DNA of 46,224 nucleotides from Campylobacteraceae bacterium (GTDB taxonomy: Bacteria; Campylobacterota; Campylobacteria; Campylobacterales; Sulfurovaceae): contig JALWNT010000063.1 of the NCBI GenBank assembly GCA_027080995.1, positions 1 to 46,224 of the forward strand, given 5' to 3'. The first letter of the stretch is position 1, and each line of letters opens with the position of its first letter. The notes beneath the pieces were generated by a model, which had not been told where the DNA came from, ran no database searches, and saw only the letters and a list, made by a program, of their open reading frames with translations. This document shows positions 7,650 to 42,843 of this stretch, one piece after another. The position numbers were made by a program, and so were the translations under genes.

Positions 7650-7684
7650 AACGAGGAGCGAAAAGCGAACGACGAAGAACGAAG
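7650..7684. repeat. Heptad array, unit RRCGARR, five units, abutting the globin stop codon
   Basis: Five consecutive 7-bp units each carry CGA at positions 3-5 (first unit AACGAGG, last AACGAAG). The array ends at 7684 and the globin stop codon begins at 7685. No open reading frame or promoter is needed to explain it; it is one of several heptad-periodic spacers in the window. Confidence 0.6.
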
Positions 7685-8182
7685 CTACTGATCCTCTTTC
7701 GCCTGGGTGTAGCTGGCGTAGTAGGTGCTGCCGTCGCTGAAGGTGTTGACGGTGAGTTTGGAGAATTGGTCGAGGTAATCCCAAAACTCCTTTTTGATCG
7801 CTTCGTCAACCCCTTCGACTTCGTCGAGGGCGTCGCGCATCGTCCCGAGCCACTCGACGCGGGCCTTTTCGTTAATGGAAAATTCGTCGTGAAGACGGAT
7901 CATATACTCGTTGAGGTCCATGCTCTGTGCTTCATCTTCGTAGACCTTCGGGCCGCCGCAAATCTGGATGAAAAATTTTGAATTTTTCTCCTTGACCTTT
8001 TCGAACTCCTCTTCGTCCTGGGGGAAAAAGTGGGCGATGTCGCTCTCGTAGATTTTGTCGTAGAAGTTGTACATCAGTTTGCGCATCCCCTCTTCGCCTC
8101 CGATCGCTTCGTAGAAGCGTTTGCTCGGGTTTTTGAAGCGGACCGTTTCGCCTTTTTCGACAGGGCTGATTTCCAGTGCCAT
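7685..8182 (-). CDS. Truncated haemoglobin-family globin
   Basis: A 165-residue 2-on-2 globin. FYEAIGGEEGMRKLMYNFY matches the A/B/CD start of truncated haemoglobins. The region ICGGP, then RLHDEFSI (His in the proximal F8 position) and WLGTMRDAL matches the group II-like F-to-G stretch. The roughly 20-residue N-terminal extension and C-terminal tail are longer than the minimal fold. Such globins bind O2 or NO, and in Campylobacter globins protect against nitrosative stress under an FNR-family regulator. The start has AAGGA upstream. A TTGA-N6-TCAA palindrome lies about 57-70 bp before the start codon, consistent with that type of control. The subgroup is less certain than the globin call. 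Confidence 0.82.
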   Translation of the reverse strand: MALEISPVEKGETVRFKNPSKRFYEAIGGEEGMRKLMYNFYDKIYESDIAHFFPQDEEEFEKVKEKNSKFFIQICGGPKVYEDEAQSMDLNEYMIRLHDEFSINEKARVEWLGTMRDALDEVEGVDEAIKKEFWDYLDQFSKLTVNTFSDGSTYYASYTQAKEDQ

Positions 8183-8213
8183 AGTTTTCCTTCGTATTTT
8201 AATTAGGAGTAAT

Positions 8214-8219
8214 ATTATC
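8214..8219 (-). promoter_or_regulatory. -10 element for the globin gene
   Basis: GATAAT on the minus strand, 32-37 bp before the globin ATG. It would place transcription start near 8204-8207, with the palindrome at 8239-8252 centred roughly 38-41 bp upstream. Confidence 0.5.
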
Positions 8220-8238
8220 CTATTTAGAGTGAAAGCGC

Positions 8239-8252
8239 TTGACCGGGATCAA
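8239..8252. promoter_or_regulatory. FNR/CRP-like operator between the globin and HIT genes
   Basis: TTGACCGGGATCAA matches the CRP/FNR-family half-site pattern TTGAY-N4-ATCAA with one asymmetry. It lies between divergent promoters: about 40 bp upstream of the inferred globin start (the class II activator position) and about 36 bp upstream of the inferred HIT start. Confidence 0.5.
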
Positions 8253-8268
8253 GTTGCAAGCCTTTCGC

Positions 8269-8274
8269 TATAAT
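8269..8274 (+). promoter_or_regulatory. -10 element for the HIT gene
   Basis: TATAAT followed by TCCGCC, about 48 bp before the HIT start codon at 8322. Confidence 0.6.
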
Positions 8275-8321
8275 TCCGCCAGTGAGTTTCCCAGTGAGTT
8301 TCAATGAAAAAAGGAGAAAAA

Positions 8322-8675
8322 ATGTGCATTTTCTGCAAAATCGTCGCGGGAGAGATCCCCAACAATACCGTCCACGAGAACGAAGAGTTTCTGGCTTTTC
8401 ACGATCTCTATCCCAAGGCACCGATCCACGTTCTTGTCATTCCCAAGAAGCATATCTGCTGTTTCCAGGAGGTGGATGCCGAGACGATGGCGAAGATGAC
8501 GCCCTTTATCCAGGAGGTTACCCGCAAGCTCGGCATCGATCAGAGCGGTTACCGCCTCATCGTCAACAACGGTGAAGACGGCGGGCAGGAGATCCACCAC
8601 CTGCACGTCCATATCCTCGGCGGCGGCAAGCTGCGCTGGGACCATCAGCACGAGGATGCCCGCAAAAACATTTGA
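8322..8675 (+). CDS. HIT-family nucleotide-binding protein (HINT-type)
   Basis: A 117-residue histidine-triad protein starting MCIFCKIVAGEIP, with the active site HHLHVHILGG near the C-terminus. HINT enzymes hydrolyse adenosine phosphoramidates and aminoacyl-AMP; the physiological substrate is often unknown. I chose the ATG at 8322 because AAGGAG sits 5 nt before it; an in-frame ATG at 8304 would place this SD inside the gene and add six atypical residues. The gene precedes pheS, as in H. pylori. A small GCCCC-GTA-GGGGC hairpin follows at 8682-8694 without a T-run. Confidence 0.9.
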   Translation: MCIFCKIVAGEIPNNTVHENEEFLAFHDLYPKAPIHVLVIPKKHICCFQEVDAETMAKMTPFIQEVTRKLGIDQSGYRLIVNNGEDGGQEIHHLHVHILGGGKLRWDHQHEDARKNI

Positions 8676-8821
8676 CCGCTTGCCCCGTAGGGGCTCCGAC
8701 GCAATCAGCGACTGCCAAAGCTGCCGGATGAAACCGGCGAAATGATCAAAAAAACCCGTTATACCGTCTCCGGGAGAGAGGGAGAACTTCGTTCAAAACC
8801 CGTCCCCCAGCGATTTTTCGC

Positions 8822-8827
8822 TAAAAT
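8822..8827 (+). promoter_or_regulatory. Possible -10 element for pheST-aroA-ispH
   Basis: TAAAAT, 32 bp upstream of the TTG start of pheS. It would drive the four overlapping genes that follow. Confidence 0.4.
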
Positions 8828-8858
8828 CCCCACATTTCATCATCAGTGAGGTAACGGA

Positions 8859-9851
8859 TTGGAAAATCTCGAAGAAAAGATAGCGGGGGCGTCGTCCCTC
8901 GAGGATCTGGAGAAGGTCCGGATCGAAATCTTCGGCAAAAAGGGAGCCCTGGCGGCGGAATTCGCCAAGCTCAAGGATGTGCCCGGGCCGGAGAAAAAAG
9001 CGTTCGCCGAAGGGTTGAACCGGCGCAAAGCTCAGCTGCAGGCGCTCTTCGACGCCCGCAAAGAGAAGCTCGCGGCCGAAGCGCTGGAGCGGACGATGCG
9101 CTCCGAAGCGCTTGATGTGAGTCTCTATTCGGGCCTGGGTGAGAAGGGAGCTCTGCATCCGGTCCGTGAGACGATGGATCGGATCATCGACTATTTCGTA
9201 GCGCTCAACTTCGCCGTTGAGAGCGGGCCGATGGTGGAGGACGATTTTCACAATTTCGAAGCGCTTAACCTCCCCAAGCATCACCCCGCCCGGGATATGC
9301 AGGACACCTTCTACTTCGCCGACGGCACCCTGCTGCGTACCCACACGTCTCCGGTGCAGATCCGGACGATGCTGCGCCAGAAGCCGCCGATTCGGATGAT
9401 CGCTCCGGGAGCGGTCTTTCGCCGCGATTACGACCTGACGCATACCCCGATGTTCCATCAGGTGGAGGGATTGGTCGTAGAAGAGGGCGACCGGGTGAGC
9501 TTCGCCAACCTCAAATGGATCCTCACCGACTTTCTGCACGAAATGTTCGGGGAGGTCGAGGTGCGCTTTCGCCCCAGCTTCTTCCCTTTTACGGAGCCCT
9601 CCGCGGAGGTGGACATCAGCTGCATCTTCTGCGGCGGCGAAGGGTGCCGGGTCTGTTCGCGCACCGGCTGGCTGGAGGTCCTCGGCTGCGGGGTCGTGGA
9701 TCCCAACGTCTTCAAAGCGGTAGGCTACGAAGGGGTCAGCGGCTACGCCTTCGGACTCGGAGTGGAGCGTTTCGCGATGCTCCTGCACCGCATTCCCGAT
9801 CTGCGCTCTCTTTTCGAGGGTGACATTCGACTATTGGAGCAATTCAGATGA
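8859..9851 (+). CDS. pheS: Phenylalanine-tRNA ligase alpha subunit
   Basis: A 330-residue class II synthetase catalytic subunit. An N-terminal coiled coil (about 1-90) contacts tRNA. The catalytic domain shows motif 2 ([15 protein letters not shown], about 188-202) and motif 3 ([10 protein letters not shown], about 307-316), with THTSPVQ upstream. It works as an alpha2beta2 tetramer with PheT to charge tRNA-Phe in the cytoplasm. The start is TTG (8859) preceded by GAGG with 7-nt spacing. The end overlaps pheT by ATGA at 9848-9851, so subunit synthesis is coupled. Confidence 0.96.
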
Positions 9852-12181
9852 TCGTCACACGCAGCTGGCTGGAGGAGTACATCGATCTCTCCGGCATCGA
9901 CAACGACCGGCTCTACGAAACTTTCAACTCCATCGGCCTCGAAGTGGATCGGCTGGAGCCCGTGGTCCTTCCCCCCAAAGTGGTGGTCGGAAAGATTCTG
10001 GAGTGCGGCAAGCATCCCGACGCGGACAAACTCAACGTCTGCCGGGTCGATACCGGGGACGCAGAGCGGCAGATCGTCTGCGGCGCCGCCAACGTCCGGG
10101 AAGCCGAGTATGTGGCCGTGGCTCTGCCCGGCGCCGTGCTGCCCGGTGATTTCGCGATCAAACCCGCCAAGCTTCGCGGGGTCGAAAGTCTGGGAATGAT
10201 CTGCTCCATGGGGGAGCTGGGGTTGCCCGAGAGCGGCCCGGGGATTTGGATCCTCGACGAGAGCCTCGGAGAGATGGTCCCCGGCCGTGAACTGGCGGAC
10301 TACGCAAAGATCGCCGATACGGTCATCGAGCTGGAGTTGACCGCCAACCGGGGGGATTGTCTGAGTGTCCACGGGGTGGCCCGGGATCTCTCGGCGGCGT
10401 TCGAGCGTCCGCTGCGACACGTGGAGGTCAAGCCGCGCCTGACGAGCAAACGCGGCATCGCCCGCAGTGTCGATCTGCATACCCACGGGGTGATCGACGC
10501 CGATCTGCTCTATGTGCTGGCGGAGAACGAAAAAGTCGCCGCCGACGCGCTGATCCGCCTGCGTCTGGCGCTGGTGGATGCTTACCGTGAAGAGGCTCTC
10601 GAGGCACTATTGGCCTACGCGACGCATGCGACGGGAGTGATCCTGCGCGCTTACGATGTGGAGAAACTTCGAAGCGGAGGGGGGCCTCTGCCGTTGCAGA
10701 TCGAGGAGAAAGAGAGAGGTTTCGTCGCCGTCCGCACCGGCGAGACGGAACTCTCCATCGTCGGGGTACGCCAAAACGAAGAGAGCCGGGCGACGGCCGA
10801 GAGTCGGGAGATCCTCTTCGAAGCCTCCTACATCGATCCGGAGGTCCTGGTCCCGATGGTGGCGCGAAGCGGGCTTCAGACCGACGCGCTCTACTATCGC
10901 AGTTCCCGGGGCAGCGAGCCCGATCTCGATTTCGGGATGGGGGCTCTCTTTGCCGCCTGCGACGCAAAAGGGGAGTGTCGGTTCAGTGAAGCGGAGCTGC
11001 GCATCGAAGCGGAGCAGGAGCGCCGCAGCGTGCCCGTCGATCTGAAAAAGCTCGATGCGATCATCGGGCAGCATATCCCCGCGGGCAAAGTCTATACGAT
11101 CTTGGAGAAGCTCGGCTTCACGGTGCATAAAGCTTCCGAGGGGGTTTTCGGAGCCGTCGTGCCCCCCTGGCGCCACGACATCTCCAACCTCCAGGATATC
11201 GCCGAAGAGATTCTGCGCATCGTAGGGATCAACCGCATCGATGCGAAGCCGCTGCAGCTGACCGAACGCAACCGCCTGACGGAGACGACCCGTCGATATC
11301 GTCTCCGGCGGGATCTGCGCGAGCGGGCCGTGGCCGCGGGCTATTTCGAGGCGGTCACCTACGCCTTCTCCGAAAAGGCGACGCTGGAGCGCTACGGATT
11401 TCCGCTCTTGGATGAGAGCGTCGAGCTGGTCAACCCCATCGTCGAGGAGCTCAATACCCTGCGCAGTACATTGACGGTCAACCTCCTGGAGGCGGCGCGA
11501 CGCAATCTCAGCTACGGCAAGCGGCGGATTCCTCTCTTTGAGATCGGTTCGGTTTTCGACCGTGAGCGTAACGAACACGAGAAATTCACTCTGCTTTGGA
11601 GCGGGGATGCCGAAGAGCCGAGCGTCGTCAATCACGGCAAGCCGCCCCGCATCGATTTCGCCCGTTTCGTCCGGACGCTGGGGGAGATCCTCGGAGAATT
11701 TACCCTGGGGCCCTGCCGGGAGACGAACGGTCTGATCCATCCCTATCAGTCTGCGACGCTCTACCTCGGCGATCGGCCGGCGGGATGGCTGAGCAAACTG
11801 CATCCCGAAGCGGCGGAAGCTTTCGGCCTGGAGGAGAGTTATCTGGCGGAGCTGGATTTCGAAGTCCTGATTCCTCCGCATCGCAACGCCGAAGCGATCT
11901 CCAATTTCCAGGGAACCTACAAAGATCTCAGCCTTTTGGTGGAGAAGGAGCTTCCCTACGCCCGGATGGCCGAAATCCTCGAGGCGCTGGATCTGCCGCT
12001 GCTGCAGCGCTTCTTCCCTGTCGACCTCTACGAAGATGAGAGTCTGGGGGAGCGCAAGAGTGTCACGCTGCGCTTCTTCCTCCAATCCTCCGAAGGAACC
12101 CTCTCCGAGGAGGCGATCGAAGAGACGATGGAGACGATCCTCTCCAGCCTTGTCGAAGGGTGCGGGGCCCGCCTGCGATGA
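9848..12181 (+). CDS. pheT: Phenylalanine-tRNA ligase beta subunit
   Basis: A 777-residue subunit. It has an OB-fold tRNA-binding domain (about 39-148; [10 protein letters not shown] and VCGAANVR), the B3/B4 editing domain region, the B5 DNA-binding-like domain (about 394-462), a catalytic-like core, and a C-terminal ferredoxin-fold anticodon-binding domain (about 683-777) that grips tRNA-Phe. It removes mischarged Tyr by family knowledge. Both ends overlap neighbours with ATGA junctions (pheS at 9848, aroA at 12178), a sign of a tightly coupled operon. Length and domain order are normal. Confidence 0.96.
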
Positions 12182-13473
12182 AAACGGTCCGCATCGCTCC
12201 GGCTCCGAGTGCTTTCGAGATCGACTGCGACCGCATCGCCGCGGACAAATCGATCTCCCACCGCTGCGCCATCTTCGCGCTGCTGAGTGATCGCCCCTCG
12301 ACGATCGACAATTTTCTTCGGGCCGAAGATACCCTCGCTTCTCTCTCCATCGCCGAGCAGTTGGGTGCAACGGCCGAATGGAGCGAAAAGGGCGTGTTGA
12401 CGATCACTCCTCCCGCGCGCCTGCGTGAACCCGACGATGTCCTCGACTGCGGCAACGCCGGGACGGGAATGCGCCTCTACTGCGGCTTTTTGGCGGGAGT
12501 GGAGGGGAGTTTCGTCCTCACCGGAGACCGCTACCTGCGGGCCCGTCCGATGAAACGCGTCACCGGGCCTCTGCAGAGTGTGGGAGCGAAACTCGACGGA
12601 CGAGAAGAGGGCAATCTCGCCCCTTTGCACATCCGGGGCGGTAAGCTCAAAGCCTTCCGCTACGCTTCTCCCGTCGATTCGGCGCAGGTCAAATCGGCGA
12701 TGATTTTGGCCGCACTGCGGGGGGACGGGCGCAGCTATTACCGCGAATCCTTCCTCAGCCGGGATCACAGTGAGAGGATGCTGCACGGAATGGGGGCGAA
12801 GATTGGGCGCGACACCGAAGGGTGGATCACGATCGATCCGATGGAAGGACCGCTCAAGCCGCTGAAGCTTCGGGTGCCCGCCGACCCCTCCAGCGCCTTT
12901 TTCTTCGCGGTGGCGGCGGCGATTCTGCCCGGTTCACGGGTCAAATTCGAGGGGATCAGTCTCAACCCGACCCGCATCGAAGCCTTTCGGGTTCTGAAGA
13001 GTATGGGTGCGGCGATCGAGTATCGGATCCGCCAGGACCTCTACGAACCGATCGGTGAAATCACGGTGCGCTACAACGGGCGGCTCGGGGCCGTGGAGGT
13101 GGCCGAGCGCATCGCTTGGCTCATCGACGAGCTGCCGGCGCTGGCCGTGGCGATGGCGACGGCCGAAGGGGTCAGCCGGGTCCGTAACGCCGCCGAACTT
13201 CGGGTCAAAGAGAGCGACCGCATCGCCTCGACGCTCCGGGCGCTGGAGGCGTGCGGGATCGAGACGGAGGAGTACGACGACGGGTATGCGGTGCACGGGG
13301 GGACGCTGCATTCCGCCGTCATCGACAGCCACGGTGACCACCGGATCGCGATGAGTTTCGCCGTCGCGGGACTGCTCTGCGGGATGGAGATCGTCGATAC
13401 CGACTGCGTCGCCACCTCCTTCCCGAACTTTTTCGACATCCTTTCACAGATTACGGAGGTTCACACCCTATGA
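12178..13473 (+). CDS. aroA: 3-phosphoshikimate 1-carboxyvinyltransferase (EPSP synthase)
   Basis: A 431-residue enzyme that joins phosphoenolpyruvate to shikimate 3-phosphate in the pathway to chorismate. Visible motifs: ADKSISHR (Lys24, Ser25, Arg29), [11 protein letters not shown] in the PEP-binding loop, KESDRI, and [14 protein letters not shown] near the C-terminus. I chose the ATG at 12178, which overlaps the pheT stop as ATGA; an in-frame upstream start at 12160 would only add MRGPPA. It ends in another ATGA overlap with ispH. The association of aroA with pheST and ispH is conserved in Helicobacter. Confidence 0.96.
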
Positions 13474-14327
13474 AAATCAAACTCGCCTCCTCCTACGGGT
13501 TCTGTTACGGGGTCAAGCGGGCGATTCGCATCGCCGAAGAGCACCCAGGCAGCTCCACCTACGGTCCGTTGATCCACAACAAAGATGAAATCGCCCGCCT
13601 CAAAGAGCGGTACGACATCGGTCTGATCGAGAGTTTCGAAGAGGCGGAGAAGACCGATTCCATCGTCATCCGAACCCACGGCATCCCGAAAAACGAGCTC
13701 AAAAAGCTCAAAGCCGAAGGCAAAAAGATCGTCAACGCCACCTGCCCTTATGTCACTACCCCTCAACAGATCGTCGAACAGATGAGCCGGGAAGGCTACA
13801 GCATCGTGATCTTCGGCGACCAGAACCATCCCGAGATCAAAGGGGTGGTCAGTTACGCCGAGGATCCCCGCGACGCTTTCGTCGTTCTCGATCCCGAAGA
13901 TTTGGACGAACTTCCGCTCAAATCCAAAGTGGCCGTCGTTGCCCAGACGACCCGCAAACCGGAGGACTTTCTCAAGATCGTCGGGGCGTTGACGCTGCGC
14001 TCGAAAGAGGTGCGGGTCTTCAACACCATCTGCAACGCCACCTTCGAAAATCAGGACGCAGCCGCCGAACTGGCCAGAGAGGCCGACGTGATGATTGTCA
14101 TCGGGGGCAAGCACTCCTCCAACACCAAACAGCTCCATTCCATCTGCAAAAACTATTGCGATGAGAGCTATCTGATCGAAAATGAAAAAGAGCTCGATCC
14201 CACTTGGTTCAAGGGCAAGGAGCTCTGCGGGATCAGCGCCGGGGCTTCCACCCCCGACTGGATCGTCCAAAACGTCATCGATCGGATCGAAGCAATCGTG
14301 CGAGACGATGTCTCTAGTGAGGAGTGA
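13470..14327 (+). CDS. ispH: 4-hydroxy-3-methylbut-2-enyl diphosphate reductase (IspH/LytB)
   Basis: A 285-residue iron-sulfur enzyme making IPP and DMAPP in the last step of the MEP isoprenoid pathway. The three cluster cysteines are Cys12 (GFCYGV), Cys92 (ATCPYV) and Cys188 (TICNAT); RTHG and NHPEIKG motifs supply the substrate-site His and Glu. The start overlaps aroA by ATGA. The last few codons (SSEE-stop) lie within the first heptads of a 7-bp repeat array (from 14317), so the extreme C-terminus appears to have been set by a repeat that reached into the gene. The catalytic core is unaffected. Confidence 0.95.
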
Positions 14328-14515
14328 GGAGTTGGCGGTTAGTGGTTTTTTAATGGAGGCGGGAATCCCTTCCTGCAATGTAGGCTGAACTCCTGGCCCC
14401 GATAATCGCGCCACGGGCATACAAATGCCCGATGCCCCACTGCCGATCCGCAAAGCGGATCTCACTGCCTTTTTCCCCGTTTTTCCCAACACATAGTACC
14501 TGACACGCAGCACTT
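14317..14515. repeat. Composite spacer with three heptad arrays (ispH-rpsA gap)
   Basis: The 252-bp gap before rpsA is mostly repeat-like. Units GTGAGGA, GTGAGGA, GTTGGCG and GTTAGTG occupy 14317-14344, starting inside ispH. RATGCCC-type units occupy 14424-14444. RRYACNN-type units occupy 14488-14515 (AACACAT first, AGCACTT last). Between the first two lies the paired-hairpin element at 14352-14400. No gene was found here. Confidence 0.55.
14352..14400. repeat. Paired-hairpin intergenic element, copy 1
   Basis: A 49-bp element beginning AATGGAGGCGGGA and ending in CCCC. It aligns without gaps to 24352-24400, with 36 of 49 positions identical by my count. In this copy the stems are partly eroded: the GGGA/TCCC inner stem remains and the second hairpin is weaker. 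Confidence 0.5.
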
Positions 14516-14540
14516 TCCCCCGACTTTAAACTATTCCCGG

Positions 14541-14546
14541 TATAAT
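14541..14546 (+). promoter_or_regulatory. -10 element for rpsA-serA
   Basis: TATAAT 34 bp before the rpsA ATG. The rpsA SD is AAGGA at 14568-14572 with 7-nt spacing. Confidence 0.65.
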
Positions 14547-14579
14547 TATCGCCAAAATGCGAAAAGTAAGGATTGGTAT

Positions 14580-16250: not shown

Positions 16251-16269
16251 AGTGAAGGACAACGTTTCG

Positions 16270-17862: not shown

Positions 17863-17869
17863 AAAGGAT

Positions 17870-17884
17870 GGAGAGATTTTCTCC
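17870..17884 (+). terminator. Weak hairpin after serA
   Basis: GGAGA-GATTT-TCTCC begins 8 bp after the serA stop. No clear T-run follows, so it may be a weak or Rho-assisted terminator. Confidence 0.3.
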
Positions 17885-17908
17885 TCCACTGCATTCCTTC
17901 CTCTGAAA

Positions 17909-18003: not shown

Positions 18004-18024
18004 CTTCATATTTTTTGCTATACT
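17948..18024 (+). promoter_or_regulatory. Two -10 elements upstream of the tolC-like gene
   Basis: TATAAT at 17948-17953 and an extended -10 (TGC then TATACT) at 18016-18024. The second is 34 bp before the ATG and is the better candidate. The spacer from 17863 to 18057 holds no gene. Confidence 0.55.
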
Positions 18025-24269: not shown

Positions 24270-24400
24270 CTAATTTCACCTTCTCGTATGTGAAATTAGA
24301 AAATAGAAATGAGAAATTTTGCTATGTGTTGCTTCGCAACGCATTGAGGCAAATGGAGGCGGGACTGAAATCCCGCAATGCAGGGTTGAAGCCTGCCCCC
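24270..24400. repeat. Composite intergenic repeat after efp: inverted repeat, heptads and paired-hairpin element copy 2
   Basis: CTAATTTCAC (24270-24279) and GTGAAATTAG (24290-24299) form a perfect 10-bp stem just past the efp stop. From 24293 the right arm continues as heptads AAATTAG, AAAATAG, AAATGAG (to 24313). A GTTGC-TTC-GCAAC hairpin follows (24328-24340). The 49-bp element at 24352-24400 then forms GCGGGA/TCCCGC and GCAGG/CCTGC hairpins and matches 14352-14400. The rest of the gap to 24543 holds only the promoter at 24504. Confidence 0.55.
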
Positions 24401-25159: not shown

Positions 25160-25238
25160 CGTACTCCGTGTTCCGACTTTCGCGCTCCGTGTGTTATTCT
25201 CCCAAAACCTAAAATCAAATCACGAATAACGAATCACC
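25160..25238. repeat. Two heptad arrays in the DJ-1/DedA gap
   Basis: Five units of CGNNYTC type (CGTACTC first) run from 25160 to 25194. Three units of AATNACS type (AATCACG, AATAACG, AATCACC) run from 25218 to 25238. The first array is the reverse complement of the GARNNCG type at 34468-34495. The remaining stretch to 25309 contains no recognisable gene. Confidence 0.6.
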
Positions 25239-28631: not shown

Positions 28632-28688
28632 TTGCGACTTGAGGGGCGAAGCCCCGTGCTTGCGACTTGCGACGGAACCGAAGGTTCC
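28632..28688. repeat. TTGCGAC heptads with GAA-loop hairpins at the 3' end of the RND gene
   Basis: TTGCGAC units occur at 28632-28638 and twice at 28660-28673. They flank GGGGC-GAA-GCCCC (28643-28655). A second hairpin, GGAACC-GAA-GGTTCC, spans 28674-28688 and touches the RND stop codon. The same arrangement precedes the bioA stop at 34624-34656. The rest of the 263-bp gap (28426-28688) holds the rhlE leader and no gene. Confidence 0.5.
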
Positions 28689-33057: not shown

Positions 33058-33095
33058 GGTATTTTCCTTTTCGCTGCAATACTCTATCGTGCGCA

Positions 33096-33155
33096 ATCAT
33101 ACCAAAACTCTTTCCATATTATTTAACATAATCTACAGAGTCTCTATGCTATGAT
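33096..33155. promoter_or_regulatory. Divergent promoters for rsmH (minus) and the Sel1 gene (plus)
   Basis: Minus strand: TATGAT at 33096-33101 for rsmH-ftsL-RND. Plus strand: extended -10, TGC then TATGAT at 33147-33155, for the Sel1 gene. Both support the downstream start codons chosen for these genes. Confidence 0.5.
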
Positions 33156-33198
33156 CCGTGTAGGAATCCAAAGTTTTTGCGAAACGGTAAAGGGAAAA

Positions 33199-34413: not shown

Positions 34414-34423
34414 GAAACTACTA

Positions 34424-34656
34424 ATTCGTCGTTCGTCATTCGTATAGCCGCATGGCGGCTTTTTTCGGAGTTCGGAATACGGAACGCGGAGCACAAAGTT
34501 ATTTGAGAGTGAGTAGTCCGCAGTTTCGGTACACGTTGCTTCACAACGTCCCACATGACCGGTGACAGTGCTGTAGGCGCACAAAATGCCCAATGCCGAT
34601 GCGCATAGCGGATTTCAATGCCCTCGCCGAAGGCGACACCGCTTGCAACTTGCGAC
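34424..34656. repeat. Composite heptad and hairpin spacer between the Sel1 gene and bioA
   Basis: The 244-bp convergent gap holds no gene. Heptads: RTTCGTM units at 34424-34444, GARNNCG-type units at 34468-34495, AATGCCS units at 34585-34598 and TTGCRAC units at 34643-34656, the last ending next to the bioA stop. Hairpins: CGTTG-CTTCA-CAACG (34534-34548) and TCGCC-GAA-GGCGA (34624-34636), besides the terminator at 34446. Confidence 0.55.
34446..34466 (+). terminator. Rho-independent terminator of the Sel1-repeat gene
   Basis: AGCCGC-ATG-GCGGCT (34446-34460) followed by a run of six T. It lies 32 bp after the stop codon, immediately after a heptad array. Confidence 0.85.
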
Positions 34657-34657
34657 T

Positions 34658-35953: not shown

Positions 35954-35993
35954 TCCGCCTCCTGGGCTAATCGCCTCTTAATGTCATGTTCAC

Positions 35994-36003
35994 TAAAATT
36001 ATA
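35994..36003. promoter_or_regulatory. Overlapping divergent -10 elements for bioA and ppiD
   Basis: Plus strand: TAAAAT at 35994-35999, 35 bp before the ppiD ATG. Minus strand: TATAAT at 35998-36003, 44 bp before the bioA ATG. The two overlap by 2 bp, so polymerase binding should be mutually exclusive. Confidence 0.5.
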
Positions 36004-36034
36004 GGCAAATTTTATCGACAAGGCGGCTACGGGC

Positions 36035-37501
36035 ATGATTGCATGGATGCAAAAACACAACAAATATCTGGTGATCACGATTTGGATCGCCACCATCGCC
36101 TTCATCGGGGCCGGATTCGTCGGCTGGGGAACCTATCAGTACGGCTCCAAAGCCGGTGCGATCGCCCGAGTCGGTGACGTGACGATCAGTCAGGAAAAGT
36201 TCAATTTCACCTATCAAAATCTCTACCGACAGTACGCCGAAATGTTCAAAGGAAATTTCGACGACGCCAAGGCGAAAAAAATGGGCTTGGACAAAGAGGT
36301 GTTTCGTCGTCTTGTCTCCCAGGCGATGCTGCTGAATCTGGCGAAGGAGTACGGAGTGATCGTCTCGGACGAAGAGTTGGCCGAAGCGATCGCCGAACTG
36401 CCGGCTTTCAGGACGAACGGAAAATTCGACAAAAGAGTCTACAAAACATTTCTTGAGGCCCGTGGACTCAAAGCGAAAACCTTCGAAAGCATTCTGCGTG
36501 ACGATCTGACCATCGAGAAGTTGATGGGGTTTCTCAACCTGAATGCCGTACCTTTCGAGAAAGAGGTGGTGGCATCGGCTCTAAGTGTTTCGGACAAAAT
36601 CCGCTACCAGGTGCTCAATCCGGCAAGCGTCGATCTCAATGCGAGCGAAGCGGATCTGAAAAAGCTCTGGGAGGGTGAAAAAGAGAAATTTATGACCCCT
36701 CGCCACTATACGTTGGCACTGCTTTGGACCGATACTTCGGACCTCAATGCGAGCGAAGCGGATTTGAAAACCTTTTATCAGAAAAACAGCTTCAACTATA
36801 CCGATGCCGAAGGGAAAGAGTTGGGTTTCGAAAAAGCCCGTGCCCGGGTGGAGAGGGACTATCGGATCAAAAAAGGAAAGAAAAAGGCTCTTCTCGATTA
36901 CATTGCGTTTAAAAAAGGGAAGAAAAAAGCGACAGAAATCAAAGATCTGCCGGTCGGAGACAAATCGCTTCCTCGAAGTCTCTGGAAAGAGATCGAAAAC
37001 ACCTCTCCAGGCGGACTGATCAAGCCCCGTCCCGTCAAAGACCGTTATGTGACCGTCCGAATCGAAAAGACGACCGCTCCGCGACCCATGCGTTTTGAGG
37101 AGGCCAAGGCTTTGGTGGCTGCCCAATGGAAAAAAGAAGCGGCGGCCAAGGCGATCGAAAAAGAGGCGAAAGAGCTTTTGAAAACACCGGAAAAAATCTC
37201 CGGAGAGAGCCCCTGGCTCAGCCTGACGGAGAGTGTCACTCTGCCGCCGCTCTCTCTTTCCGAAAGTTTGCAATTCGTGCAAAAGCTATTTACATCTAAT
37301 GAAAAAGAGGGTATTATCGATCTAGCCGGCAAAAAAGTTGTCTATGTGATCGAAGAGCAGCGGTTCGGGCAGAACGATAAAAATCTGACAAAAAAAATCG
37401 GGGCGACTGCCGATCGAATCAAAAAAGGTGAATTTGAAGGATCTCTGTTGAAGTCCCTCTATGAAAAATATCCCGTCAAATCGTTTGTAAAAGGATTCTA
37501 G
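36035..37501 (+). CDS. PpiD/SurA-like periplasmic folding factor with a membrane anchor
   Basis: A 488-residue protein: short cytoplasmic start, membrane anchor (about 11-33), a SurA_N-type chaperone domain (about 40-190) and a parvulin-like region (about 210-370), then a helical tail. As in PpiD it should sit at the inner-membrane face and help secreted proteins fold; whether the parvulin domain is an active prolyl isomerase is unclear. DLNASEADLK occurs twice (residues 200-209 and 236-245), encoded by near-identical 30-nt repeats 108 bp apart. It lies 2 bp upstream of ftsA. Confidence 0.85.
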   Translation: MIAWMQKHNKYLVITIWIATIAFIGAGFVGWGTYQYGSKAGAIARVGDVTISQEKFNFTYQNLYRQYAEMFKGNFDDAKAKKMGLDKEVFRRLVSQAMLLNLAKEYGVIVSDEELAEAIAELPAFRTNGKFDKRVYKTFLEARGLKAKTFESILRDDLTIEKLMGFLNLNAVPFEKEVVASALSVSDKIRYQVLNPASVDLNASEADLKKLWEGEKEKFMTPRHYTLALLWTDTSDLNASEADLKTFYQKNSFNYTDAEGKELGFEKARARVERDYRIKKGKKKALLDYIAFKKGKKKATEIKDLPVGDKSLPRSLWKEIENTSPGGLIKPRPVKDRYVTVRIEKTTAPRPMRFEEAKALVAAQWKKEAAAKAIEKEAKELLKTPEKISGESPWLSLTESVTLPPLSLSESLQFVQKLFTSNEKEGIIDLAGKKVVYVIEEQRFGQNDKNLTKKIGATADRIKKGEFEGSLLKSLYEKYPVKSFVKGF

Positions 37502-37503
37502 AA

Positions 37504-38940
37504 GTGTCGAAAACGATTCTAGCCATCGATGTCGGCTCCACGAAAGTCGCGGCCGTTATCGCCGAAGTGAATGCTGACAACGGTCTGACGATCACGGGGC
37601 ACGGCGTCGTCGAATCCAAAGGTGTCAAAAAAGGGGTGATCACCAACATAGAACTCGCCTCCAAATCGATCAAAAAAGCGCTCAACGATGCGCGAAGAAT
37701 CGCAGGCAACAACATCTCCGTCGCGACCGTCTCCATCTCCAATGCTTACGCCCGCAGTCTCAATTCGTCGGGCATTGTCAACATCCCCCACAAAGACATT
37801 TCGATCAAAGAGATCAAGCGGGTCATGGATACGGCGCTCTACAATGCCAACATTCCCAATGAATTTGAAGTGATCCATGTGCTCCCCTACAACTTCAAAG
37901 TGGACGATCAGGATTTTATCGAGGATCCCTACGGGATGAACGCCAGCCGCTTGGAGGTCAGTGTCAATATCATCATGACCCAAAAATCGGCGTTGAATAA
38001 TTTGACCAAAGCGGTGCGCGCCGCCGGACTGGAGATCGGAGGAATCGTTCTCAACAGTTACGCCTCCGCCATCGCCGTCATAGGAGACGACGAACGGGAA
38101 CTGGGGGTTGCCGTCATCGATATGGGCGGTCAGACCAGCAATCTGATCATCCATGTGGGCAATTCGATCCGCTACAACGATTTTCTCGCCGTGGGTTCCA
38201 ACCACATCACCAACGATCTCTCCATGGCGCTGCATACGCCGCTGAGCGTGGCAGAGAAGGTGAAGATCCGCCACGGCAATCTGCTGGAGAGCAGCAGTGA
38301 GAGCATCGAACTCCCGGTGATCGGGGATGAAGAGAGTCGCAACCCTGTCCCGCTCGAAACCGTTCATGCCATCATATTGGCACGGGTCGAAGAGGCGCTG
38401 ATGCTGCTGGCTAAGTCCATCGACAAAAGTGCTCTGCGGGAGCAGATCGGTGCGGGAGCGGTCCTGACCGGAGGAATGACCAAGCTCAAAGGGATGCGCG
38501 AATTGGCCCAGGCGATTTTCGGGATGCCGGTACGCATCGGTCTGCCCCGGGAGTTAGACGGCATGTACGAAGAGATGAAAGATCCCGCCTTCTCGACCGT
38601 GGTCGGTCTTTTGCTCCATCAGGCGGGCGGGCATACGCAATACGAGATCGATTTCGGAAAGAATCTTTTGCATCATAAAGAGGTTTCCACTTCAGAGACT
38701 CTTGACGATTTGCAACTCGGTGGACGGAAAGAGGAGAGTTCGGAAGAGAAGGAGTTTTCCTTCGATTTCAACGAACCCGGGAAAAAAGAGAAAAAAAACC
38801 GCCGATCTTCCCGACGCAGCGCTGAAAAGAACGTCGAAGAGGAAGAAACGGCTTTCGACTTCGGTGATCTGCCCAAACCCTCCAAAGAGGAGGGTGGGGG
38901 CCTTGGCAAATTCGTCAACTGGATGAAACAACTCTTTTGA
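37504..38940 (+). CDS. ftsA: Cell division protein FtsA
   Basis: A 478-residue actin-like ATPase that tethers FtsZ to the membrane. The N-terminal phosphate loop AIDVGSTKVAAVIAE, the SHS2 (1C) subdomain, the second nucleotide loop DMGGQTSNLI and the adenosine loop AGAVLTGGMTKLKGM are all present. It ends with an acidic/basic linker (about 395-460) and the amphipathic membrane-targeting helix GKFVNWMKQLF. The linker is longer than in E. coli FtsA (about 420 residues total). The start is GTG, with AAAGGA 9 nt upstream. Confidence 0.96.
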   Translation: MSKTILAIDVGSTKVAAVIAEVNADNGLTITGHGVVESKGVKKGVITNIELASKSIKKALNDARRIAGNNISVATVSISNAYARSLNSSGIVNIPHKDISIKEIKRVMDTALYNANIPNEFEVIHVLPYNFKVDDQDFIEDPYGMNASRLEVSVNIIMTQKSALNNLTKAVRAAGLEIGGIVLNSYASAIAVIGDDERELGVAVIDMGGQTSNLIIHVGNSIRYNDFLAVGSNHITNDLSMALHTPLSVAEKVKIRHGNLLESSSESIELPVIGDEESRNPVPLETVHAIILARVEEALMLLAKSIDKSALREQIGAGAVLTGGMTKLKGMRELAQAIFGMPVRIGLPRELDGMYEEMKDPAFSTVVGLLLHQAGGHTQYEIDFGKNLLHHKEVSTSETLDDLQLGGRKEESSEEKEFSFDFNEPGKKEKKNRRSSRRSAEKNVEEEETAFDFGDLPKPSKEEGGGLGKFVNWMKQLF

Positions 38941-38967
38941 GACATATATTAAGGATGGGAGAAGACT

Positions 38968-40149
38968 ATGGCACATTTTGACATTGAAATCGAGACAACG
39001 GCCGGTGCAGACAACGGAATCGAGGGCGCCAAAATCAAAGCGATCGGTGTCGGAGGCGGCGGCGGAAATATGATCAATCACATGATTTCCGAAAATGTCA
39101 AGGGGATCGATCTGATCGTCGCTAATACCGATGCGCAGGCTCTGGACTCATCGATGGCTCCGATCAAGCTGCAGCTTGGACCCAACGTCACCCGGGGACT
39201 CGGAGCCGGAATGAAGCCCGAAATCGGCCGCGAAGCTGCTTTGGAGAGTTTCGGAGAGATCAAAGAGACTCTCGCGGGGGCCGACATCGTCTTTATCTCC
39301 GCGGGTCTCGGCGGCGGTACGGGCACGGGAGCCGCCCCGATCATCGCCCAGGCGGCCAAAGAGGTCGGAGCGCTTACCGTCTCCGTCGTCACCACCCCTT
39401 TCCGTTTCGAAGGTCGCAAACGTCAGCAGCTCGGAAAAGCGGGACTCGAAGAGTTGAAGCGTGAGAGCGACTCCATCATCGTCGTTCCCAACGAGCGGCT
39501 GCTCTCCATCGTCGAAAAGAATCTCGGTATCAAAGAGAGTTTCCGCCTCGTCGACGATGTCCTTTGTCAGGCGGTCGCCGGGATCTCCAACGTCATCCTC
39601 TCCCACGGCCCCAACGACATCAACCTCGACTTCGCCGACGTCAAGACGGTCATGAGCCACCGCGGACTGGCGCTCATGGGATCGGGCAGCAGCACCGGAG
39701 CCAACGCCGCTTACGATGCGGCCAAGGCGGCCATCGATTCGCCCCTGCTGGACAACATCTCCATCAACGGAGCCAAAGGGGTGCTGGTGCACTTCCATAT
39801 TCATCCCGACTATCCGATCCTGCAAATCTCCGAAGCGATGGATATCATCGAAGAGCATGCGGACGAGGATGCCAGCGTCATCTTCGGTACCACGACCGAC
39901 AACAATCTCGAAATCGATCAAGTCAAGATCACGATCGTTGCGACCGGATTCGAGGAGCCCGAAAGCGTGGCGGCTCCGACTCAGGCCGAAAAGGCGAAGA
40001 GCGCGACGGATCTTCTCGCCTCCCGTTCGGCGGGCAACAACGCCAACCCCTACAACACCTTCCAGGGCGGAAGAAAAGTGGTGGGAGGCTACGATATCGA
40101 CGAAGATCTCCTGGATGTGCCGACCTTTCTGCGCAAGCAGATGGATTGA
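38968..40149 (+). CDS. ftsZ: Cell division protein FtsZ
   Basis: A 393-residue tubulin-like GTPase that forms the division ring. The tubulin signature GGGTGTGAAP is at about 114-123; VGGGGGN (nucleotide loop) and NDINLDFADV (T7 loop, catalytic Asp) are intact. A short disordered linker leads to the C-terminal peptide DVPTFLRKQMD, which binds FtsA. It lies 27 bp after ftsA with an AAGGA-type SD and is the last gene of ppiD-ftsA-ftsZ. Confidence 0.97.
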   Translation: MAHFDIEIETTAGADNGIEGAKIKAIGVGGGGGNMINHMISENVKGIDLIVANTDAQALDSSMAPIKLQLGPNVTRGLGAGMKPEIGREAALESFGEIKETLAGADIVFISAGLGGGTGTGAAPIIAQAAKEVGALTVSVVTTPFRFEGRKRQQLGKAGLEELKRESDSIIVVPNERLLSIVEKNLGIKESFRLVDDVLCQAVAGISNVILSHGPNDINLDFADVKTVMSHRGLALMGSGSSTGANAAYDAAKAAIDSPLLDNISINGAKGVLVHFHIHPDYPILQISEAMDIIEEHADEDASVIFGTTTDNNLEIDQVKITIVATGFEEPESVAAPTQAEKAKSATDLLASRSAGNNANPYNTFQGGRKVVGGYDIDEDLLDVPTFLRKQMD

Positions 40150-40165
40150 GAGAAAGCCTTTTCTC
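40150..40165 (+). terminator. Hairpin and pyrimidine tract after ftsZ
   Basis: GAGAAA-GCCT-TTTCTC begins at the ftsZ stop codon and is followed by a long C/T-rich tract up to 40195. The stem is short, so the strength is uncertain. Confidence 0.4.
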
Positions 40166-40199
40166 CTCTCCCCCTCCTTTTCCCTCTTTTTTTCGCTAC

Positions 40200-40205
40200 C
40201 ATAAT
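40200..40205 (+). promoter_or_regulatory. -10 element for the UPF0323 operon
   Basis: CATAAT, 59 bp before the ATG; the SD is AAGGAG at 40252-40257. Confidence 0.45.
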
Positions 40206-40263
40206 CTCTCATCAATTGAACAAAACAGCTAAACATTTTTTTTGAATACATAAGGAGACAAGA

Positions 40264-40884
40264 ATGAAATACATTAAAAAAATCGGAAACTATGGAGCGG
40301 GTCTCGGACTGGGCGCCCTCTTGGCCGTCGGTCTGGGCGGCTGCCAACAGCGTTCGAGCGAGCAGGCGGCTGCGGCCCAGCCTCAGCAGAAAAACGCCTT
40401 CGTCGTTATCGAGGAAGTCAAACCCGGCAAGTACAAGGTCGCGGAGGAGTTTCCCGCCAAGGAGACCCGCATCATCCTCAAGAAGCTCGACGGGACGGAG
40501 AAGGTCCTCACAAAAGAAGAGATGGATGCCTTGATCAAAAAGGAGGAGGCGAAGATCGAAAACGGTACGTCGCCTCTGACCAGCCCCGAAGGTGCGCAGG
40601 TGGCCCAGCAGGGAGGTCTGAGTCTGGGGGAGGCGATCCTCGCCAGCGCCGCGGGAGCGATGATCGGCTCCTGGATCGGCAGCAAACTCTTCAACAACCC
40701 CAACTACCAAAAGACCCGGCGTGCCGGTTACAAGACTCCCACGGCTTACAACCGCAGCGTCAACAGCTTCAAAAAAGGCGCCCGTACGACGAGCCGAAGC
40801 TCAAGCACTCGGCGCAGCGGCTTTTTCGGTAGCAGCCGTTCGATGACGAGTAGCCGAAGCCGCAGCGGTTTCTTCGGAGGCTGA
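40264..40884 (+). CDS. UPF0323 family lipoprotein
   Basis: A 206-residue lipoprotein of a family found in Campylobacterota (H. pylori HP0232 type). The lipobox GLGGC puts lipidated Cys at residue 27. Conserved family features: NAFVVIEE, the EEAKIENGTS segment, a Gly/Ala-rich helix SAAGAMIGSWIGSKLFNNPNY cut here at its end, and Ser/Arg-rich C-terminal repeats with GFFG (SGFFGSS and SGFFGG). The function is unknown. It is followed 3 bp later by the glutathionylspermidine-synthase-like gene, a pairing also seen in H. pylori (HP0232-HP0233), so the two proteins probably work together. Confidence 0.88.
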   Translation: MKYIKKIGNYGAGLGLGALLAVGLGGCQQRSSEQAAAAQPQQKNAFVVIEEVKPGKYKVAEEFPAKETRIILKKLDGTEKVLTKEEMDALIKKEEAKIENGTSPLTSPEGAQVAQQGGLSLGEAILASAAGAMIGSWIGSKLFNNPNYQKTRRAGYKTPTAYNRSVNSFKKGARTTSRSSSTRRSGFFGSSRSMTSSRSRSGFFGG

Positions 40885-40887
40885 GAA

Positions 40888-42075
40888 ATGGTCCGATTGC
40901 GCCCCGTCGAGCCGCTCGATACCGCCTATCTCGAAGAGCTGGGGTTCACTTGGCATACCGACAGCGACGAGACCCCTTATCTGGCCGACGTCCTCGTCGA
41001 AGTGACGGAGGCGGAGGCGGAAGCTTACTACGAAGCGGGCAACGAACTTTACGATATGTACGTTGCCGCGGGCGAGCATGTGATCGCCAACAATCTCTTT
41101 CACGAGATCGGCATCCCCTTCAACCTGGTGGAGTTGATCAAAGAGAGCTGGGAGAACGAAGTGCATTGGCATCTCTACGGTCGCTTCGATCTGGCCGGAG
41201 GGATCGACGGCAAGCCGATCAAACTGCTGGAGTTCAATGCCGACACCCCCACGGCGCTCTTCGAGACGGCGATCGTCCAGTGGGCGATCCTCAAGCGCAA
41301 CGGTCTGGACGAGATGGCCCAGTTCAACGGCGTCTACGATGCGCTGCTGGAAAACTTCAAACGCCTCGTGACGCTGGAGGAGAGCGTGGAGGGTTTCCAC
41401 GAGCGCTACGAGGGGTGGCGCTTTCTCTTTACCTCGATCCGGGGCAACGCGGAGGAGGAAAATACCGTCCGACTCTTGCAATACATTGCGACAGAGGCGG
41501 GATACGAGACGGAGTTTGCCTACATCGACGAGATCGAATTCGACGCAGAGGAGGGGATCTTCTACGAGGGGGTCAACTACGAACTCTGGTTCAAGCTGAT
41601 TCCCTGGGAGGCGATCGCCCTCGAGGAGCCGGATCTTGCGATGCTTCTGACCCAGATCGTCCGCAACCAAAAAGCGATCATCTTCAACCCCGCCTACACT
41701 CTGATGTTCCAGAGCAAAGGGATGCTCAAAATCCTCTGGGATCTCTACCCCGGTCATCCTCTGCTCCTGGAGAGCTCGTTCGAGCCGCTTAAGGGGAAAA
41801 TGCAGGTCAAAAAGCCCTTTTTCGGGCGTGAAGGGGGCAACGTTGCGATCCTGGAGAGCGACGGCAGCACCGTGGTCACCGATCTGCAGGGAGAGTACGC
41901 CAATTTTCCGATGCTCTACCAGGAGTATGCGGAGCTGCCGGCGGACACCGAGGGGCGGCGCTATCAGGCTGGGCTCTTTTTCGCCTACGAATCCTGCGGT
42001 CTGGGTTATCGGCGCGGCGGAGAGATCCTTGATAATCTCTCCAAATTCGTCGGCCACGTGATCGTTCCCGCATGA
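40888..42075 (+). CDS. Glutathionylspermidine synthase-family ATP-grasp protein (YgiC/YjfC-like)
   Basis: A 395-residue protein of the GSP-synthase ATP-grasp family without the amidase half of E. coli Gsp. Visible family features: GRFDLAGGIDGKPIKLLEFNADTP (cut: LEFNADTPT is the core) and, near the C-terminus, VKKPFFGREGGNV, an ATP/metal-binding loop. Family members form peptide-like C-N bonds using ATP; YgiC-like proteins have no settled substrate, so glutathionylspermidine production here is not claimed. It sits between the UPF0323 lipoprotein and an L,D-transpeptidase and overlaps the latter by ATGA. Confidence 0.85.
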   Translation: MVRLRPVEPLDTAYLEELGFTWHTDSDETPYLADVLVEVTEAEAEAYYEAGNELYDMYVAAGEHVIANNLFHEIGIPFNLVELIKESWENEVHWHLYGRFDLAGGIDGKPIKLLEFNADTPTALFETAIVQWAILKRNGLDEMAQFNGVYDALLENFKRLVTLEESVEGFHERYEGWRFLFTSIRGNAEEENTVRLLQYIATEAGYETEFAYIDEIEFDAEEGIFYEGVNYELWFKLIPWEAIALEEPDLAMLLTQIVRNQKAIIFNPAYTLMFQSKGMLKILWDLYPGHPLLLESSFEPLKGKMQVKKPFFGREGGNVAILESDGSTVVTDLQGEYANFPMLYQEYAELPADTEGRRYQAGLFFAYESCGLGYRRGGEILDNLSKFVGHVIVPA

Positions 42076-42635
42076 AAACGTCAACGATAAGATTTTTTTT
42101 CACCGTTTTGGTTTCGGGTCTTGTGTCGCTGACAGCCGGAAAGCCCGGACCTTTGGCTGCCGTCGACTCCGCGGGGGAAAATGCCGTTCGCGTGGTGAAA
42201 AAACCGATACTAAAAGCCCAAAAAGTCCTCATCGACAAATCGGAGCGTACGCTCTATTTGATCCGCAACGGCAAAGTCTATCGTCACTATCACATCGCCC
42301 TGGGCAGGCACCCCGAAGGTCCGAAAATTAAAGAGCACGACGGACGCACCCCGGAGGGGAACTATACGCTCGATTATAAAAATGCGCAGAGCCATTATTA
42401 CCGGGCGATCCACGTCAGCTATCCCGGCCCCAAAGATCTAGCCCGGGCCAAAAAGCTCGGCATCAACCCCGGCGGGGCGATCATGATCCACGGACAGCCC
42501 AACTGGTGGGGCTGGCTTTCACCCATTCGTCAGCGCTTCGACTGGACCGCCGGCTGCATCGCCGTCAGCAACGGCGATATGGACGAGATCTGGCAGGCGG
42601 TCGCACCGGGGACGCCGGTTGAGATAAGGCCGTAA
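42072..42635 (+). CDS. L,D-transpeptidase (YkuD domain), exported
   Basis: A 187-residue protein with a signal peptide (about 1-22) and a YkuD domain (about 50-185). The catalytic motif is His140-Gly141 followed by DWTAGCIAVSN with nucleophile Cys162 (the family consensus is SHGC; TAGC is an accepted variant). It may form 3-3 peptidoglycan crosslinks or attach or trim peptides; Campylobacterota relatives such as Csd6 act as L,D-carboxypeptidases, so direction is uncertain. It ends in a repeated AAGGCCGT octamer that includes the stop codon, just before a heptad array. Confidence 0.88.
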   Translation: MKTSTIRFFFTVLVSGLVSLTAGKPGPLAAVDSAGENAVRVVKKPILKAQKVLIDKSERTLYLIRNGKVYRHYHIALGRHPEGPKIKEHDGRTPEGNYTLDYKNAQSHYYRAIHVSYPGPKDLARAKKLGINPGGAIMIHGQPNWWGWLSPIRQRFDWTAGCIAVSNGDMDEIWQAVAPGTPVEIRP

Positions 42636-42639
42636 GGCC

Positions 42640-42843
42640 GTGCTACGTATTACGTGTTACGTGCTACGAATTGGGTTGGAATATTGAGTCTTGGGCCCGC
42701 CATTGTGAACTTGATTCAGAATCCACGGTTGCCTAGGTATACGAAGCTTTGGATTCCGGATCGAGTCCGGAATGACAAATGTTTGTCAGAAAACTCAATT
42801 CTTAACACTTAGCACGTAGCACTTAACACATAACACGTAACAC
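42640..42843. repeat. Symmetrical intergenic element with heptad arrays as inverted arms
   Basis: Left arm 42640-42667: four GTRYTAC units. Right arm 42802-42843: six NTARCAC units, the reverse-complement type. GAATTG (42668-42673) and CAATTC (42796-42801) join arms to a 122-bp core. Over 34 bp the arms pair at 26 positions by my count. The core contains ATTCCGGA-TCGAG-TCCGGAAT (42753-42773), a palindrome of a type widespread in bacterial spacers. No gene is present. The helicase SD follows directly. Confidence 0.65.

Follow-up and report, generated by a model that had tools for sequence, protein, structure and literature searches.

The 46,224-base window studied here, contig 63 (JALWNT010000063.1; 56% guanine plus cytosine, GC) of a draft genome from the Sulfurovaceae (GCA_027080995.1, referred to as G000), carries short tandem arrays of seven-base words in its gene spacers. 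Such arrays are dense in this genome and in seven GC-rich congeners, while four other congeners and most of the sampled relatives have few or none. Within this one clade, many words follow a single set of rules: the unit comprises 7 nt, about four copies are present, the strands are mirror images at the two gene edges, and the sites are kept while the words change. Spacer DNA, and even the reading frame of an sdhB gene, is rewritten in seven-base steps. Since many words obey one rule set and the strand rule recurs in cyanobacteria, the data suggest that separate heptamer families may be products of one testable process.

The original prediction, which was made from the letters of the window alone, had claimed a seven-base periodicity of the spacers and proposed a comparison of lag 7 with other lags and with shuffled sequence. 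The genome is a 1.97-Mb draft with a completeness of 99.95%, from which the window and 40 other stretches were sampled (428,644 b in total); these yielded 194 gene-flanked spacers with a length of 30 nt or more, amounting to 37,010 b. Genes were called with our own hexamer-based caller and partly checked by Pfam, and segments at a given lag were scored with +1 for a match and -1 for a mismatch (segment score T). At lag 7, the spacers comprised 67, 53 and 39 segments at T>=9, 12 and 15, compared to means of 2.1, 0.1 and 0.0 after shuffling. Lags 4-6, 8-13 and 15 gave at most 6, 3 and 1 segments, and lag 14, the harmonic of 7, gave 49, 32 and 18. The spacer identity was 0.297 at lag 7, 0.289 at lag 14 and 0.284 at lag 21, compared to 0.264-0.271 at lags 5, 6, 8 and 9, and still amounted to 0.295 at lag 7 with the window left out. 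Coding DNA showed a period of 3 without an excess at lag 7. The predicted excess is therefore present throughout the sampled genome, and based on the lag identities and the segment counts against shuffles, chance or an over-degenerate reading of the heptads as a whole can be ruled out.

To compare genomes, segments at lag 7 with T>=12 were counted and normalised to 100 kb of total sequence. Their density amounted to about 17 in the own genome without runs of N (19 with them, which inflate the counts to 80 at lag 7 and 9-14 at other lags) and to 23 to 65 in G001, G005, G006 and G008-G011, all of which have a GC content of 55-58%. For G002, of which only 25 kb were sampled, 4 segments per 100 kb were determined. 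The congeners G003, G004, G007 and G012 (34-49% GC) showed 0 to 7, 23 other members of the family 0 to 15 and eight members of the order 0 to 10, mostly with 20-40 kb sampled from each. No lag-7 segment at T>=12 was detected in 50 kb each of E. coli K-12 and Sulfurovum mangrovi.

The anatomy of the arrays was determined for nine GC-rich genomes (G000, G001, G002, G005, G006, G008, G009, G010 and G011), among which the assemblies of G002, G005 and G006 are 75-88% complete. After removal of 8 out of 239 arrays that were runs of N, 231 arrays remained. For segments with a score of at least 14, the copy number showed its mode at 4-5 and the length at 29-33 nt. A total of 53 unit types was distinguished, 19 of them found in more than one genome, with 51 arrays left untyped for want of an exact doublet; AATGAGG, AAAATCC, ACTCCTC, AATGACC and AAACGAC were the commonest. 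The strand with more G than C (G strand) comprised 0.34 G, 0.31 T, 0.28 A and only 0.07 C. Two arrays from one genome were of the same type more often (0.062) than two from different genomes (0.034; standard deviation of the shuffled difference 0.005), which also allows for copying from array to array. AAAATCC arrays of 109-169 nt were observed at contig ends of the stretches L011, L015 and L031, so that the draft assembly may be interrupted at long arrays, whose number would then be underestimated.

The orientation of the arrays follows the flanking genes. The 373 spacers with a length of 40 nt or more contained 179 arrays, of which 69 G-rich and 11 C-rich ones lay in the left halves and 10 G-rich and 85 C-rich ones in the right halves, with 4 neutral. 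Independent of the gene calling, neighbouring arrays at most 350 nt apart showed the order G-then-C in 45 cases and C-then-G in 2. Beyond 350 nt the order was reversed (3 to 36), as expected with a gene between the arrays. Accordingly, at both ends of a spacer the G/T/A-rich, C-poor strand, read 5' to 3', points away from the adjoining gene and into the spacer. The arrays lie close to the genes, with 41 of the 179 at most 4 nt from a gene edge, in agreement with the earlier remark that several arrays end near a stop codon. Of these arrays, 166 fell into the 261 co-directional spacers; the 38 convergent spacers contained 7 and the 74 divergent ones 6. Strand geometry, copy-number mode, arrays within genes and the swapping of unit types all go beyond what had been predicted.

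The same geometry was observed outside the clade. A scan for three copies of GTCATTG in a collection of 84,980 species genomes returned at least 117 stretches, 80 of which were listed by title, and the following counts for known phyla refer to these listed matches. Cyanobacterial titles accounted for 63 of the 80; others belonged to Bacteroidota, Planctomycetota, Verrucomicrobiota and relatives, and Desulfobacterota or 'Deltaproteobacteria'. In the cyanobacterial loci, co-directional spacers showed 42 G-rich and 16 C-rich arrays on the left and 22 and 52 on the right, divergent spacers 7/3 on the left and 2/13 on the right, and convergent spacers 11/2 and 2/12, while neighbouring arrays were ordered G-then-C over C-then-G by 39:3. 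The 17 non-cyanobacterial loci gave 8/1 on the left and 4/9 on the right (p 0.01). From the same scan 37 loci had been held out, of which 33 were used and four were dropped due to other letters or short length; they showed 29/7 on the left and 13/28 on the right (p 3e-5), with neighbours at 21:2. Since the rule holds in tandem, divergent and convergent cyanobacterial spacers as well as in the hold-out loci, gene direction is not its cause. Array-less spacers had no matching GC skew in most contexts. Viral contigs were considered as carriers, since 30 viral stretches contain an array of the GTCATTG type, and were rejected because the geometry is absent there. Common unit types were likewise rejected as proof of transfer: among the listed matches, cyanobacteria and the clade have 8 of 74 types and 22 of 148 arrays in common, where about 3 types and 7 arrays are expected (53 of 1172 classes, assuming even composition), a mild excess at most.

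Between species, orthologous arrays were compared in ordered genome pairs and orthologous spacers in unordered pairs, the pairs not being independent of each other. Aligned blocks of G000 and G005 are mostly 87-92% identical; several arrays were unchanged in sequence and number, others were replaced, and a hairpin module alone could be gained or lost. In stretch L022 of G000, a 241-nt spacer between two genes is bordered by TTCA at either end; G005 lacks this spacer, and its two genes abut. Among 259 orthologous spacer pairs, arrays were present in both members of 75 (32 expected by chance), in one member of 33 and in neither of 151. At a flank identity of at least 88%, the ordered pairs showed the same type in 22 cases, only another type in 22, no array in 0 and no spacer in 4. 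The corresponding numbers were 77, 156, 30 and 15 at 80-88% and 33, 117, 11 and 14 below 80%, the counts for another type only being inflated by spacers with multiple arrays. Among the same-type arrays, the copy number was equal between species in 12/22, 54/77 and 23/33 cases of the three identity bands and differed in the remaining 10, 23 and 10, compared to the 22, 156 and 117 cases with another type only. Nine pairs of one-array spacers comprised three of the same and six of different type, some of the six being arms of inverted repeats that were scored apart. Altogether, occupied spacers persist while the unit type changes more often than the copy number.

At T>=13, 179 out of 203 arrays lay outside called genes and 24 within. 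The clearest case within a gene is that of an SdhB-type iron-sulfur protein (Pfam Fer2_3, Fer4_8), for which 20 of 30 loci were aligned. At a first site, all six GC-rich genomes with a close ortholog (G000, G001, G006, G008, G009 and G011) carry an in-frame array, which adds 33 to 45 nt relative to G036, and at a second site five of these six carry one. As judged by eye, heptads are absent at both sites in the 14 other relatives of the alignment, G021 having a different insert. At the same codons the word is AAAATCC in G000, ACTCCTC in G001 and G006, and CAACGCT in G011, all of them without a stop codon in the sense direction. A minus-strand open reading frame (ORF) at L027:11306-12622 contains three heptad arrays and no Pfam match; it may be an array-carrying gene or a false call.

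Hairpins of at least 6 bp were found at most 45 nt from clade arrays in 98 of 225 cases 3' of the G strand and in 67 of 225 on its 5' side, compared to 70 of 1982 control places. TTYGGW occurred within about 18 nt 3' of the array in 49 of 225 cases, compared to 39 of 1982 controls. Perfect stems with a 3-nt loop in array-bearing co-directional spacers peaked at 7 bp (39, with 27 at 6 bp and 5 at 8 bp; shuffles 0.8 at 7). After collapsing equal stems (loops of 3-4 nt), distinct stems of 6, 7, 8 and 9 bp numbered 33, 27, 8 and 1. Beside cyanobacterial arrays, hairpins were much weaker (21 of 220, compared to 45 of 1165 control places) and showed no 7-bp peak. Since the peak shrinks on collapsing and is absent in cyanobacterial loci, a 7-nt quantum as a general law for inverted repeats was discarded, and the 7-bp hairpin is retained as a module of this clade only. 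Specific pairing of left and right arms was also discarded as the cause of the geometry, because the complementarity of the two arms within one spacer (0.612) hardly exceeded that of arrays taken from separate spacers (0.588, standard deviation 0.019); values above 0.75 were reached in 6 of 39 spacers. Hairpins of the form TTTCTCC-AAA-GGAGAAA stand before start codons in orthologs of the L032 spacers (e.g. L093), where they would pair a ribosome-binding site with its own inverted copy.

With respect to the origin of the arrays, our tentative preference is for housekeeping copying in steps of 7 nt over a mobile element, with whole arrays being written and periodically rewritten; we consider this possible, with moderate confidence in the class of process and low confidence in its details. 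A copying process acting on 3' ends is favoured because slippage and RNA-level selection each fail part of the data. In such a process, 3' ends would meet in gene spacers during the repair of breaks or stalled forks, and a cellular DNA polymerase would repeatedly slip back by 7 nt while extending them. The product would be about 30 nt, corresponding to about four copies of one word, with the G/T/A-rich, C-poor strand directed outward from the gene, and the arrays would be kept since spacers tolerate them. From the observed arrays, with their period, copy mode, geometry, persistence and swapping, we infer that 3' ends are extended, that a cellular polymerase does this, and that the arrays have no sequence-specific function. 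A wider version covering several phyla, to which we give a slim chance, would be a telomere-like writing without RNA template, in which about four self-templated G/T/A-rich heptads are added to both 3' ends of a break before rejoining; this would leave mirror-image arrays and words renewed repeatedly at the same sites. Several observations weigh against the favoured copying process. The copy number differs in 10 of the 22 same-type cases with the closest flanks, so that whole-unit slippage does occur. The concentration of clade arrays in co-directional spacers (3.4 per kb, compared to 0.8 in convergent and 0.4 in divergent ones) is not predicted by breaks alone, and cyanobacterial convergent spacers are as array-rich as co-directional ones. 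Lone arrays obey the strand rule less strictly (9 G-rich and 3 C-rich on the left, 4 and 23 on the right), as do the few clade arrays in convergent or divergent spacers. Viral contigs do not show the rule (20/20 and 12/24, p 0.17; order 9:6), and array-less convergent cyanobacterial spacers have a G skew of 0.085 in the left half. In sdhB of G000 and G011, two arrays about 200 nt apart share a word that is absent from the orthologs, which suggests copying from array to array instead.

Ordinary replication slippage, which would form microsatellites of 7-nt units with a length set by the footprint of the DNA polymerase (Mrazek et al. 2007, as summarised in PMC4679880), seems somewhat unlikely as the whole explanation. 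It accords with period 7 in several phyla, with a difference of one unit between G000 and G005 at window position 7649, and with the differing copy numbers in 10/22, 23/77 and 10/33 same-type comparisons. Plain slippage, a possibility already named in the original prediction, accounts for part of the change between species only: changes of type outnumber those of copy number (22, 156 and 117, inflated by multi-array spacers), the copy number peaks at 4-5 without falling off from 3, and neither the strand geometry nor in-frame arrays with other words at conserved sdhB sites fit. Persistence of sites with swapping of words is not easily explained by simple copying slips. Alternatively, the arrays could be RNA-level elements of operons, with a sense RNA that is G-rich behind the stop codon and C-rich ahead of the next start and is selected for structure, termination or translation control while the words are irrelevant. 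The 166 of 179 arrays in co-directional spacers, the hairpins 3' of the G strand (98/225 compared to 70/1982) and the predicted fold of window spacer 42636-42860 (z -5.9) point in this direction, and avoidance of G-rich, Shine-Dalgarno-like words before starts would be plausible. We nevertheless regard it as unlikely, given that left and right arrays of the same spacer are no more complementary than those of different spacers, that cyanobacterial spacers of the divergent and convergent kind obey the rule as well, and that arrays lie within sdhB reading frames. RNA-end processing, also considered in the original prediction, is a candidate function only, although hairpins lie 3' of the G strand at those 98 of 225 arrays. 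A non-autonomous mobile cassette, similar to repetitive extragenic palindromic doublets forming hairpins (REPINs) or small dispersed repeats (SDRs) and consisting of array plus 7-bp hairpin module, could spread through a transposase or through recombination of one module with another. Common unit types and hairpin modules (TTYGGW; 39 stems of 7 bp compared to 0.8), the missing 241-nt spacer with its flanking TTCA and the genome-specific unit types would agree with this, but hairpins are much weaker beside cyanobacterial arrays and distinct stems are less sharply peaked, so that we judge it quite unlikely. None of the nine GC-rich genomes yielded a match to reverse transcriptase (PF00078/RVT_1), and Y1 transposase (PF01797/Y1_Tnp) was not found in G000, G002, G005, G006 and G009, some of these genomes being incomplete and other transposases not having been searched. 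Accordingly, neither repeat-moving enzyme is common to the GC-rich genomes. Due to these missing profiles, both were rejected as makers, whether as REPIN with its associated tyrosine transposase (RAYT) or as diversity-generating retroelement (DGR), retron or telomerase-like enzyme, and of the mobile element considered earlier, a version with a known enzyme found no support. The complete genome of the congener G011 holds seven Y1-type matches of equal score. The geometry would also suit Chi-like polarity signals, in which G-rich words oriented towards a break halt the degradation of its ends and so shield the adjacent genes; since a recognition signal is one sequence, yet 53 types occur here, this is very improbable.

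The stretches listed in the original prediction have the sequences given for them. Within the window, seven of the arrays listed beforehand reached T>=12 and one more T=10, while those starting at 14424, 14488, 25160, 28660 and 34643 lay outside T>=9 segments; comprising two to five copies or being very degenerate, they cannot individually be separated from chance. The first array (GAACGAG/AGCGAAA x5, 7649-7684, plus strand, T=13) ends directly before the stop codon of a minus-strand globin-family gene (7685-8182). It breaks the geometry rule, being a G-rich array on the right of a convergent spacer, and its G005 counterpart is one unit shorter with point changes. The array GTGAGGA/GTTNGNG (14316-14347, plus, T=13) encloses the stop codon of a LytB-family gene (13470-14327); in G005 the same array is followed by a module of hairpin and T-run, which is absent from G000. 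Two weak minus-strand arrays follow: AATGCCC x3 (14424-14444), below threshold alone, is a unit type of other clade arrays, and a decayed array of the NACACNN kind (14488-14515) has a G005 counterpart that, by eye, is also roughly in sevens. GAAATNA x3.7 (24292-24317, plus, T=13) precedes a DJ-1 family gene and is followed by the hairpin-like GTGTTGCTTCGCAACGC; the orthologous spacer of G009 holds an AGTAACT/AGTAACG array. On the minus strand, the very degenerate CGNNYTC stretch (25160-25194) stays below threshold, and CCNAAAA/AATMACG (25201-25237) reaches T=12. RTTCGTM x3 (34424-34444, minus; segment 34425-34443) is the array with T=10, and TTCGGAG/TACGGAA (34464-34490, plus) reaches T=12. 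The two-copy, unstranded TTGCGAC (28660-28673) and TTGCAAC/TTGCGAC (34643-34656) are chance-like.

The spacer 42636-42860 (plus), which leads from a YkuD-family gene to an AAA-domain (helicase-like) gene, has a G-strand array on the left (GTGYTAC x4, 42639-42668, plus, T=15) and a C-strand array on the right (NTARCAC x6, 42794-42847, minus, T=27). At its centre lies the dispersed hairpin GGATTCCGGATCGAGTCCGGAATGAC. The arms on the two sides of this centre are complementary; as inverted arms of the spacer they comprise 30 nt with 87% identity, and a fold of -75.4 kcal/mol is predicted. The arms are retained with a different centre in G005 and G002, whereas the centre is identical in G009. A BLAST search of the spacer against plasmids gave no match. 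The dispersed hairpin CTGAACTTGATTCAGNATCCACG...GGATTCCGGATCNAGTCCGGAATGAC occurs in the middle of several heptad spacers, namely in this one, in L028:8295-8661 and in the orthologous L074 and L078, and words similar to it exist in other phyla. Apart from the heptads, a 20-nt AT-rich tandem array lies at 46151-46204 (Tandem Repeats Finder score 59). The gene order of the window around pheS-pheT, lytB, S1, serA, TolC, RND, efp and DJ-1 resembles that of a Sulfurovum mangrovi record (Campylobacterota, Sulfurovaceae), the efflux genes showing 67% nucleotide identity; this resemblance and family hits are the basis for the assignment to Campylobacterota.

Reports of heptamer repeats go back to about 1990 and treat them as curiosities of a few genera, each with its own favourite word. 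In titles and abstract starts of the open-licence literature, to which the search was confined with subscription papers outside it, neither such arrays in Sulfurovaceae nor a general strand rule was found. A precedent in Campylobacterota is the heptamer GTGATTA of Helicobacter pylori (as mentioned in PMC4692102). According to Mrazek et al. 2007, as cited in PMC4679880 and PMC4692102, 7 is the commonest unit class of long simple repeats in most genomes; the slippage account attached to it, as far as it is given there, predicts neither type swapping nor mirror-image strands. The TAACTGA direct repeats of marine Beggiatoaceae, Cyanobacteria and Bacteroidetes, which in Beggiatoaceae often stand just before start codons (excerpts of PMC4679880), resemble the clade arrays as intergenic heptamers scattered over phyla. 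As described there, they comprise one fixed word with related words rare, whereas related words are mixed within the clade arrays; TAACTGA is not among the 53 listed unit types (51 arrays untyped). The Xanthomonas GGGNATC and Nostoc GGGGAYT heptamers mostly have four units, form convergent pairs, lie nearer to the 5' neighbouring ORF (28 compared to 160 nt), mostly between co-directional ORFs, and are to 7-11% inside genes (excerpts of PMC4692102). Taking 5' as that of the G-rich strand, we read the GGGNATC layout in these excerpts as the same arrangement as here. As presented there, those systems rely on one G4-forming word, whereas the clade uses many, most without GGG. The five commonest clade types lack GGG on either strand, and a minority has it on one strand (AATGCCC and ACCCACT, 4 arrays each). 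With the short tandemly repeated repetitive (STRR) sequences of filamentous cyanobacteria (Calothrix, Nostoc), which had been named as a possible relative of the window arrays, the clade shares degenerate tandem 7-nt words in spacers, the three-unit GTCATTG array and the strand geometry. A tandem 7-nt period, a mainly intergenic position and convergent G-rich pairs near gene ends are all found. Compared to cyanobacterial STRR, the clade arrays have a copy number more tightly at 4-5, most unit types differ, and 7-bp hairpins lie beside them. The arrays are therefore STRR-like heptamer repeats, and what is new is that many unit types stand under one rule.

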